DNA of 64,000 nt, from assembly GCA_902810745.1 (NCBI GenBank), contig CADDYW010000009.1, positions 1 to 64,000 on the forward strand, given 5' to 3'. Source of the stretch: Chloroflexota bacterium (lineage in GTDB: Bacteria; Chloroflexota; UBA6077; FW602-bin22; CADDYW01). The first letter of the stretch is position 1; every line of letters begins with the position of its first letter. The position numbers and the translations under genes are program-made. Below, one piece after another: positions 56,443 to 63,727 of this stretch. The notes under the pieces were generated by a model. It saw only the letters and a list, made by a program, of their open reading frames with translations. It had not been told where the DNA came from and searched no databases.

Positions 56443-56985
56443 TCAGCCAGGAGTCTCTGGTAGACAGGAAGCAATCTGGGCGAGCGCGTGCTGTCGATTG
56501 ATCCTGGCAACCTGCAAGGAGACAACCGGGACGCTCAGGTTGAAGTCGTCGATCTTTCGGTTGACTTCGTCGATCATCGCACCGTAGCTGGCCACGAAGT
56601 CGCGATGCTCTGCCTCGGTACGCTGCCAGCGGGCTGCCCGCAGGTAGGGTGGCAGGCGGTGCAGGTTCTGCAGCGTTGAACGTATCATCTCCCGATGGGC
56701 CCGAGCGCGCCGGTCAAGCGCTGCGACGTCGGCTTCGATGTCCTTGCGTAGCTCGATCCACGGCAGCGAGTAGCCCGCGTTGCGCAGGATGCGGTAGGCA
56801 AGCCGCATATCCTCGGGAACGAACGGGTTGTCCTCATCCGACAGATCGAGAGGCTTGCCACTTCCTGGCAGATTCTGGAAGAAGCCCTGCTCGGCCAGTT
56901 CGTCGAGAAGACGTCGGGTCCGTTCGGCGACGGTCTCCAGATGCCGTGGAGGCTTGGGCGAGGGGATCTCGCGCGGCTCTTCCAT
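56443..56985 (-). CDS. DUF1992 (DnaJ-C28-like) domain protein
   Basis: A 180-residue protein of the DUF1992 family: LLDELAEQGFFQNLPGSGKPLDLSDEDNPFVPEDMRLAYRILRNAGYSLPWIELRKDIEADVAALDRR is the conserved core in residues 30-100. The C-terminal half is helical and Arg-rich. The function of the domain is unknown; the similar region of eukaryotic DNAJC28 has no known role either. ATG 56985 has AGGA about eleven bases upstream; the frame continues upstream to 57045. Confidence 0.8.
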   Translation of the reverse strand: MEEPREIPSPKPPRHLETVAERTRRLLDELAEQGFFQNLPGSGKPLDLSDEDNPFVPEDMRLAYRILRNAGYSLPWIELRKDIEADVAALDRRARAHREMIRSTLQNLHRLPPYLRAARWQRTEAEHRDFVASYGAMIDEVNRKIDDFNLSVPVVSLQVARINRQHALAQIASCLPETPG

Positions 56986-57121
56986 TGTAGAGACGATCCT
57001 TTGATCACATCTGCGCTTCAGGTAGATTGTACCGCAGCGCGTCATGCACGGGATGCATCGGACGCCGACCGGTCACCGCGCGTGCTGGCGCGAGATGGCA
57101 TCATTATGTCGATTTTCACTC

Positions 57122-57150
57122 TTGACAGGAGCCAGGCCCTCCGCTACACT
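57122..57150 (+). promoter_or_regulatory. Strong promoter of the ABC exporter leader
   Basis: TTGACA at 57122-57127 and TACACT at 57145-57150 with a 17-bp spacer, the best sigma-70 match in the window. Transcription would begin near 57157, some 270 bases before the ABC ATPase gene. Confidence 0.7.
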
Positions 57151-57210
57151 ATCTTCCGAACGTTAGCCTGCTAGGCGTTTGTTGTAGTCTGATCCCAAGG
57201 AGCGAATCTG

Positions 57211-57300
57211 GTGAGCACTGGGTACCCGAGCTTCCTGGTCAGCCGCGTCCGCGCTGCTGTTCCTGGGGGGCGTACTGTGCTCACCGCGCATCGTCGTTGA
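57211..57300 (+). CDS. 29-residue leader peptide before ABC exporter
   Basis: GTG 57211 has AAGGAG eight bases upstream and opens a 29-codon frame (MSTGYPSFLVSRVRAAVPGG, then RTVLTAHRR) ending with TGA at 57298. It lies between a strong promoter and a strong terminator. The start region GGTGAGCAC (57210-57218) is complementary to GTGCTCACC (57276-57284) near the end of the frame, so ribosome position on the peptide would change the RNA fold. It is basic and has no known family. Confidence 0.5.
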   Translation: MSTGYPSFLVSRVRAAVPGGRTVLTAHRR

Positions 57301-57320
57301 ACGATTAGCTCGAACGACTT

Positions 57321-57361
57321 ATCGCCGTGGGACGGTTCGCCGCCCACGGCGATTTTATTTT
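57321..57361 (+). terminator. UUCG-capped intrinsic terminator in the ABC leader
   Basis: ATCGCCGTGGG (57321-57331) pairs with CCCACGGCGAT (57343-57353); the loop region contains CGG-TTCG-CCG, giving a UUCG tetraloop. TTTTATTTT follows directly. It is the strongest intrinsic terminator seen in the window, located 63 bases before the ABC ATPase start, so downstream expression must depend on read-through or on disruption of this hairpin. Confidence 0.85.
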
Positions 57362-57423
57362 GCCCTGGTCGCGTTCTGCTATTGGCAGGTTCGGGAGATT
57401 TCCAGCCAGGAGGACTATCAGCT

Positions 57424-58266
57424 ATGTCCGACCACGATGCGCCCCTCGCGGTCCAGCTCGACACCGTGCGCAAGGTGTTCAGCAATGGGCGGGCCGTGCC
57501 ACTCGTCGGCCGATTACGACGGTCGCAGCCGGGTAAGACCGTGATTGCCGTGGACGATCTCAGCCTCAGCGTCGCGCGAGGACAAATCTATGGAGTCCTG
57601 GGTGCGAATGGTTCCGGTAAGTCGACGCTTATCCGTCTGATCTCCACCCTGCTGGTCCCCGACTCCGGACGGGTACTGGTTTTCGGTCACGACGTCGTCA
57701 AGGAGGAGATGGCGGTCAAACGATTGATCAACCGGGTGAGTGTCGAGGCCGCGTTCTTCCGCGTGCTCAGTCCGATGGAGAACCTCCTCTACGCTGCCCG
57801 ACTCTACGGGCTGGATGGGGGCGTCGCGCGTCGTCGCGTCCTCGAGATACTCGACAGCCTCGGCATCGACGCAAAGCGAGTTGGCGAGCCCCTCGAAAAA
57901 ATGTCACGCGGGATGCAGCAGAAAGTCGCGATTGCTCGCGCATTCCTCACGTCGCCGATTCTGCTCCTCCTCGACGAGCCGACGACTGGCTTGGATCCTC
58001 GCTCGAAGCGCGAAGTCCAGCAGCTGATTCTCGATCTTCGCGCTCGCCACGACGCAACGGTCGTTTTGACCACCCACGACATGGATGAAGCCGATCGCTT
58101 GTGTGATCGGATCGCGATTCTGCACCAGGGACGTATCGTCGCCGACGATACGCCGAGTGCTCTCAAGTGTCGGTACGGCGCTTCGCCGACCTCGACGCTC
58201 GAAGACATCTTCATGGCATTGACCGGTCATCAGATCGAAGAAGAGGAAGCCGAACGAGTCGGCTGA
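57424..58266 (+). CDS. ABC-2 type exporter ATP-binding protein
   Basis: A 280-residue ATPase. VLGANGSGKSTLIRLI is Walker A, the signature KMSRGMQQKVAIARA has a serine-arginine variant (MSRGM for LSGGQ), the Walker B is ILLLLDEPTTGLD, and the H-loop is LTTHDMDEADRLC. A ~30-residue insert (NGRAVPLVGRLRRSQPGKTV) sits before the first beta-strand. It pairs with the permease 10 bp downstream. GGAGG lies nine bases before ATG 57424. Drug or lipid export is typical; the substrate is unknown. Confidence 0.92.
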   Translation: MSDHDAPLAVQLDTVRKVFSNGRAVPLVGRLRRSQPGKTVIAVDDLSLSVARGQIYGVLGANGSGKSTLIRLISTLLVPDSGRVLVFGHDVVKEEMAVKRLINRVSVEAAFFRVLSPMENLLYAARLYGLDGGVARRRVLEILDSLGIDAKRVGEPLEKMSRGMQQKVAIARAFLTSPILLLLDEPTTGLDPRSKREVQQLILDLRARHDATVVLTTHDMDEADRLCDRIAILHQGRIVADDTPSALKCRYGASPTSTLEDIFMALTGHQIEEEEAERVG

Positions 58267-63372: not shown

Positions 63373-63401
63373 TTGACAGGTAGTGAAGCACCGTGTAGCA
63401 T
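63373..63401 (+). promoter_or_regulatory. Promoter of the ileS T-box unit
   Basis: TTGACA at 63373-63378 and TAGCAT at 63396-63401, 17 bp apart. Transcription would start near 63408, right before a perfect 7-bp hairpin (GGGACCC-GACGT-GGGTCCC, 63409-63427) that would cap the 5' end of the leader. Confidence 0.65.
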
Positions 63402-63439: not shown

Positions 63440-63727
63440 GAAAACAAGGCTGTGACGGAAAGAGTAGGTCTGGCAGATGGCGCCAGAGAGCCCGGGGCTG
63501 GTGTGACCGGGTGCCGAGCCTGACTGAAAATCGTTCCCGAGCTGCCGGTCCGAACCGCGGTACCAGAAGGCGCAGTAGGGCTGGCCGGAGTCGTCGTCCG
63601 TTATCCGCGACGCGGGTTCGCGCCACGGCATGGTGGCGCCGACCTGACACGAGCGCGCCCCCGGCGAACAAGGGTGGTACCGCGGGAGTTCCTGGCTCTC
63701 GTCCCTGATGGAGACGAGAGCTTTTTT
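63440..63727 (+). promoter_or_regulatory. T-box riboswitch (isoleucine-specific)
   Basis: The leader holds the T-box core AGGGTGGTACCGCGGG (63671-63686) and, just after it, a classic terminator: GCTCTCGTC (63695-63703) pairing with GACGAGAGC (63713-63721) and then TTTTTT. The stem I region begins after the 5' hairpin (GTGACGGAAAGAGTAGGTC) and contains an ATC at 63530-63532 in the likely specifier loop (CTGAAAATCGTTC), matching isoleucine. Uncharged tRNA-Ile would favour the antiterminator and transcription of ileS. Confidence 0.9.

Follow-up and report, generated by a model that had tools for sequence, protein, structure and literature searches.

The window considered here is the whole analysed stretch of DNA, 64,000 nucleotides of a contig from a Chloroflexota bacterium (CADDYW010000009.1, positions 1 to 64,000). 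Near its end lie two exporter genes on the forward strand: a DrrA-like ABC-2 ATPase (57424..58266, +), the gene proposed to be controlled by the leader described below, whose ATG at 57424 stands behind AGGAGG at 57408-57413, and a DrrB-like ABC-2 permease (PF01061; 58277..59101, +) assigned by domain and family scores. The NCBIfam drrA and drrB cut-offs were missed (239 vs 312 and 52 vs 223 bits, respectively); the exporter is of the ABC-2 type and resembles DrrAB without being DrrAB by cut-off, and no substrate is assigned to it. The gene diverging from the leader (56443-57045, -) also adjoins the leader in two other loci, L002 and L004, and forms a conserved neighbourhood with it. Further downstream, a T-box leader (RF00230, 97.9 bits) is located at 63443-63709 (+) with a promoter-like TTGACA at 63373; behind it, a 1072-aa ORF beginning at the window end (L288:375-3593) resembles an isoleucyl-tRNA synthetase on inspection by eye only.

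The leader itself occupies positions 57122-57423. It opens with a promoter, TTGACA-N17-TACACT (57122..57150, +; -35 at 57122-57127, 17-nt spacer, -10 at 57145-57150), which matches 10 of 12 consensus positions. The Shine-Dalgarno (SD) AAGGAG (57197..57202, +), supported by its sequence and by the SD-start phase in relatives, precedes a GTG-started leader ORF (uORF) of 29 codons (57211..57300, +; TGA at 57298-57300) that has orthologous uORFs in other genomes and encodes the peptide VSTGYPSFLVSRVRAAVPGGRTVLTAHRR. Segment 1, GGTGAGCAC (57210..57218, +), lies over the uORF start and is the partner of segment 2, as indicated by the sequence, the fold and a duplex test; it is the exact complement of GTGCTCACC at 57277-57285. 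Segment 2 (57271..57288, +) corresponds to the codons RTVLTA, the region of a conserved R-[STI]-[AVL]-P motif, and can pair with either segment 1 or segment 3. Segment 3, CGCCGTGGGACGGT (57323..57336, +), is both the 5' arm of the terminator and, according to further duplex tests, the antiterminator partner of segment 2. The intrinsic terminator (57321..57361, +), formed by segments 3 and 4 and supported by pairing and double changes, begins 20 nt past the uORF stop and consists of a UUCG-capped hairpin (57321-57353) followed by the T-rich tail TTTTATTTT. All the elements listed in the earlier note, namely the promoter, the SD, the 29-codon GTG frame with complementary ends, the UUCG terminator and the ATPase, were confirmed base for base and in that order. 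Only one terminator was found in the window leader, with no second one in tandem. The RNA 57155-57425 folds with z = -2.85, a single shuffle out of 200 being as stable. No Rfam covariance model, T-box included, matched 57122-57423, nor did any match the leaders of 20 related loci.

A single sigma-70-like site carries little weight, as four such sites were found across 10 kb where 1.6 +/- 1.2 were expected, and a lone one is not improbable by chance. The window promoter is taken as real because it is conserved: using a threshold of at least 9/12 consensus matches, 49/57 leaders had a -35/-10 promoter upstream of the uORF, compared with 1.5 expected by shuffling. Within the family, a leader precedes the orthologous ATPase in all four genera (that of the window and the other three), with a GTG start and 28-31 codons in each case; the peptides end in TVLTAHRR, AVPTACRR, TAPTERRR and TVPTRRRP immediately before the stop. 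The next families of the class keep the same leader pattern, and in one locus (L035) the Arg-Arg pair is encoded by CGG AGA instead of CGT CGT. A scan using the ATPase alignment retrieved 80 loci, nearly all of them from Chloroflexota. A uORF of about 25-45 codons followed by a terminator was recognised in approximately 59 of 89 orthologue loci across the phylum, nearly all of these uORFs displaying a C-terminal R-[STI]-[AVL]-P-like motif; no leader was recognised in the remaining orthologue loci, some of which are truncated by contig ends. The order of promoter, SD, uORF, terminator and ABC-2 exporter is common to orthologues phylum-wide, cultured species such as Anaerolinea thermolimosa (L114) and Tengunoibacter tsumagoiensis (L095) included, and this conservation rules out a chance layout. 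Most short DNA matches, L005 and L006 among them, look like chance or coding matches and were discarded. Two orthologous exporters (L040, L041) possess a different leader, with the peptide MASC..G.IGA.VF..RRLR...LVGSG and a shared CTCATC/GATGAGG pair in place of the CCGTGGGC terminator. For L052, whose GenBank title reads Rubrobacter sp. LC5_2, genome G400 is identical in contig, coordinates and score to G301 of the window's phylum, and the genus name in the record is therefore probably wrong.

Conservation of the leader ORF frame in relatives had been set beforehand as a test, and the frame is kept: in 34/37 loci, where one third would be expected, the reading frame set by the start codon having the best strong SD is that of the C-terminal motif. 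A terminator follows the uORF in 51/51 loci having a clear C-terminal motif, usually 13-38 nt past the stop. The earlier claim that no second promoter follows the terminator also held at the consensus level, no promoter-like site (>= 9/12) being found between terminator and ATPase in any of 54 loci; the second of the note's refuting conditions was thus also survived at sequence level.

The RNA of segment 2, encoding the R-x-x-P codons, is complementary to segment 3, which forms the terminator 5' arm. Examples of this 2:3 pairing from different loci are ATTGCGCCT with GGGCGCAAT, AGTGCGCCT with GGGCGCGCT, CTGCCCAC with GTGGGCAG, and AGATCTGTGCCC with GGGCcAGATC; in the window, the predicted duplex spans the entire 5' arm and takes in an A which the terminator hairpin leaves bulged. 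When segments were swapped between loci, the 2:3 duplex weakened from a mean of -18.5 (own) to -14.6 kcal/mol (sd of permuted means 0.40), and the 1:2 duplex, between the SD/start region and segment 2, from -16.7 to -13.5 kcal/mol (sd 0.37), 0/5000 permutations reaching the own value in either case. Both complementarities are thus locus-specific, with the reservation that permutations do not fully remove relatedness. Double changes were counted in a 42-sequence alignment and compared with shuffles. In the terminator (3:4), 94% of cells are paired with 26 double-change cells vs 9.4 shuffled; in the antiterminator (2:3), 82% are paired with 14 vs 5.8. In the same alignment the pair-type count of the antiterminator did not exceed shuffles; three of its seven pairs are often broken, and some helix positions are broken in some clades.

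In folding with masked ribosomes, the 1:2 pairing forms without a ribosome (0.90), and 2:3 prevails (0.80) only if the start region is occupied while segment 4 is still missing. As soon as the whole terminator exists, 3:4 beats 2:3 at equilibrium, which implies that the switch must be kinetic; other attenuators are likewise kinetic. With only a ribosome at codon 13 masked, segments 1 and 2 remain able to pair in silico. The model consequently needs kinetics plus ribosome queuing or steric exclusion.

At other loci the leader carries tandem terminators, the second within 80 nt of the first in 22/59 cases (L035, L117, L099 and L120 among them). The first terminator has a 3' arm complementary to the second one's 5' arm (4:5; own -19.3 vs swapped -15.9), and the 3:6 pairing is also better for own than for swapped partners. 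Since the two terminators resemble each other and 3:6 passes too, the evidence for a 4:5 domino is suggestive only, and domino antitermination at these loci is no more than a possibility.

The motif [RK]x[RK] is present in 32/59 leaders vs 12.6 +/- 2.8 expected and, after weighting the exporter leaders by similarity cluster, in 31.5/61 clusters vs 14.3 +/- 2.8. None of the other spacings from 0 to 5 between Arg/Lys residues, RR and RxxR included, is enriched in exporter leaders, and leaders of other genes show no enrichment of [RK]x[RK] (5.0/24 vs 5.1 expected). In the coding frame, 53/108 leaders contain the motif where shuffling gives 25 +/- 3.6; counts in frame +1 do not exceed chance, and those in frame +2 are slightly high (74 vs 65 +/- 3.9). 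Leu, Ile, Pro, Val and Thr are the commonest residues between the two charged ones, and the Arg codons vary. An origin of R-x-R as a by-product of RNA pairing was considered; the varied Arg codons and the counts in the two other frames speak against it. Almost half of the exporter leader clusters lack R-x-R altogether. Where present, the second charged residue lies a median of 12 codons before the C-terminal motif, a distance sufficient for segment 2 to stay free. The N-terminal and middle parts of the peptide display a pN/pS of 1.16 between close relatives, without purifying selection. A short motif accounts for this more readily than a long arrest peptide does, and a long conserved arrest peptide was rejected for most of the sequence, only R-x-R and the C-terminal R/P region being recurrent. 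The +x+ motif is a known macrolide/ketolide arrest motif, at which the ribosome halts when x occupies the P site and the second charged residue the A site (PMC8298421; PMC6851288). The window leader carries it as Arg-Val-Arg at codons 12-14 (57244..57252, +), and the stall site is inferred there by analogy, with Val in the P site and the second Arg in the A site.

Taken together, the window leader is very likely (probability about 0.82) a ribosome-mediated transcription attenuator of the ABC-2 exporter. This judgement rests on comparison only, without expression data; attenuation, as proposed in the earlier note, is supported by comparison and not by experiment. That note mentioned neither the antiterminator, in which segment 2 pairs with the 5' arm of the terminator, nor the R-x-R motif, nor the spread across the phylum and the other genes found behind the leader. 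The computational support comprises the architecture, its conservation, the in-frame uORF, the alternative pairings, the +x+ enrichment and the promoter placement. In the proposed mechanism, the leader would be transcribed from the promoter at 57122. Without translation, 1:2 would pair and the terminator 3:4 would form. During normal translation, the ribosome would reach the stop beside segment 2 and partly cover that segment; 1:2 would then re-form, again leading to the terminator, and the exporter would remain off. A ribosome may, however, stall before it has passed the middle of the leader; the Arg-Val-Arg codons are the likeliest place, and an exit-tunnel antibiotic bound to the ribosome, e.g. 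a macrolide or ketolide, the likeliest cause. Segment 2 would then be free and segment 1 occupied by stalled or queued ribosomes, and segment 2 would capture the terminator 5' arm before segment 4 is made, so that RNA polymerase would read through into the exporter genes. Translation of the leader, the coupling of stalling to read-through, the drug dependence of the stall at the motif, the identity of the inducing drug and the exporter cargo are all inferred. Among these, the inference that induction is mainly due to a tunnel drug of the macrolide kind is one that we favour by a small margin.

The alternative that survives best is a variant of the attenuation reading which differs in the inducer: any slowing of translation (by chloramphenicol, a lincosamide, tetracycline etc.) would act as trigger, R-x-R being one of several contexts. 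In its favour, roughly half of the exporter leaders are without R-x-R, the middle residues of the peptide lack conservation, and Bacillus subtilis BmrB responds to several 50S drugs (PMC4191407). The specificity of the R-x-R enrichment for one spacing and for the coding frame speaks against it, and we judge this variant less likely than not. An attenuator sensing uncharged tRNA, stalled at Arg codons for lack of Arg-tRNA as under arginine shortage, would agree with the richness of the leaders in Arg and with the matching codons that this kind of leader does carry before MetRS and TyrRS. However, starvation should be indifferent to spacing, yet R-x-R alone is enriched, and in exporter leaders only; furthermore, it is exporters and other genes of resistance type that stand under this control, and not genes for arginine. 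We regard this explanation as very unlikely. The earlier note had offered a terminated small RNA of about 200 nt as its alternative; in the form weighed here, termination would be constitutive, the RNA would lie upstream by accident and the exporter would have its own promoter. A strong promoter and a terminator with nothing long between them would suit such an RNA, but it is practically excluded by the leader-exporter linkage kept across the phylum, the SD with its in-phase start codon, the complementarity of segment 2 to the terminator 5' arm, and the lack of a promoter-like site from terminator to ATPase in 54 loci. A protein- or metabolite-sensing, riboswitch-like attenuator with an incidental ORF would account for the conserved alternative pairings, but can be all but dismissed, as nothing resembling a conserved aptamer was seen (what persists from segment 1 to segment 2 is mainly the frame and R-x-R) and no Rfam model matched.

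A covariance model (R1) was built from segment 2 to the terminator and applied at E <= 0.01. Matches were obtained in 131/400 Chloroflexota genomes vs 5/300 genomes of another phylum; approximately 3-4 chance matches are expected per genome set at this threshold, and weak ones near E 0.01 may be chance. The window's own genome contains a single copy only, no paralogous leader being detected by R1. In the control phylum, L285 displays a uORF, a terminator and an ABC-2 exporter in the same order outside Chloroflexota, and L283 a 33-codon uORF with a strong SD and a terminator before an unassigned gene.

The exporter ATPase is downstream in 67/124 inspected R1 loci. The leader also precedes ABC-F genes (L196 passes the NCBIfam cut-off for ribosomal-protection-like ABC-F), MsbA-type ABC and MFS exporters, GNAT acetyltransferases, an APH-family phosphotransferase, methyltransferases, RsgA, and Met-, Tyr- and Ser-tRNA synthetases. 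Met accounts for 11-20% of residues in MetRS leaders vs 2.5% in exporter leaders; TyrRS leaders carry KYVY/KYIY, and a Ser run, SSES, was noticed by eye in the SerRS leader, a single sequence. The Met-rich peptides (e.g. MHTPRDMPDDRLPRAMRMMGIMSPAVCMSPG) before MetRS in L189, L191, L193, L195, L252 and L265 are accompanied by the same kind of terminator, and these leaders are candidate Met-tRNA attenuators. Leader peptides before MFS exporters in L254, L259 and L273 share CFRSRxACVxAFRVAQGxTMPFF or close variants; unlike in the exporter-ATPase leaders, the middle looks conserved, and for this reason the peptide may be a true arrest peptide. GNAT genes, some in tandem, stand behind the leader in L241, L242, L251, L263, L218, L225, L246 and L249, with N-terminal sensors differing from the exporter ones.

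A bolder reading, held to be only slightly more likely than not, is that of one modular chassis throughout Chloroflexota with interchangeable sensor uORFs. The chassis would consist of the promoter, the SD/start segment 1, segment 2 at R-[STI]-[AVL]-P and a CCGYGGGC terminator. The sensors would be drug arrest motifs before exporters and probably before other resistance-type genes (e.g. ABC-F), and Met, Tyr or Ser codons wherever the corresponding tRNA synthetase stands downstream. At roughly one exporter locus in three there is a second terminator, whose 5' arm could be captured by the 3' arm released from the first in a domino antitermination. The covariance-model matches do not distinguish common descent of the shared terminator from convergence.

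Several known systems are comparable. In the bmrB leader of the multidrug ABC transporter bmrCD from B. subtilis, 50S drugs were shown experimentally to induce read-through, with a requirement for leader translation (PMC4191407). The window shares with it a leader ORF, alternative stem-loops, an intrinsic terminator and a downstream ABC exporter (PMC4191407); however, BmrB has 53 codons with the terminator inside the coding region (PMC4191407), whereas the window terminator lies past the stop. BmrC and BmrD are half-transporters of another ABC class, as opposed to the ABC-2 ATPase and separate permease of the window. The B. subtilis tlrB (yxjB) leader encodes a 9-residue peptide ending in RYR and controls an rRNA methyltransferase, also under translation attenuation and NusG pausing; its stall is drug-dependent, x occupying the P site and the second Arg the A site (PMC6851288). 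An Arg-x-Arg leader peptide and transcription attenuation are common to both (PMC6851288), but the Chloroflexota R-x-R stands about 12 codons (median) before the segment-2 motif. ErmDL (RLR) likewise has a +x+ motif in its uORF as macrolide/ketolide stall site; there, mRNA refolding favours expression of the erm methyltransferase, and neither an exporter nor terminator-based read-through is described (PMC8298421). With respect to the +x+ class formed by ErmDL and tlrB, the window meets the R-x-R feature but not the rRNA methyltransferase target, an ABC-2 exporter being found instead. The trp and aminoacyl-tRNA synthetase attenuators (e.g. the cysS uORF motif, PMC8632094) share alternative pairings and sensor codons, the latter in the Met, Tyr and Ser synthetase leaders; they rely on amino-acid codons, whereas exporter leaders carry a drug arrest motif. 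The window leader resembles bmrCD, tlrB and ermD by layout without their defining arrangement. No report of the leader family in Chloroflexota was found in the open-access papers searched, most subscription papers being uncovered. The type of regulation is known, and the phylum-wide family is likely to be undescribed.

Ribosome-controlled resistance attenuators are familiar mainly from Bacillota and Actinomycetota, the papers cited above included. The present comparison points to a phylum-wide attenuator family in Chloroflexota, a phylum largely known from metagenomes. The family singles out genes that are likely to be responsive to ribosome antibiotics in these lineages, and provides a natural collection of candidate drug-stall uORFs, many of them with R-x-R. 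It is also a natural experiment: the sensor codons differ according to the gene that follows, and the RNA switch remains constant. If the bolder reading is true, the chassis would be an RNA-only counterpart of a resistance regulon.
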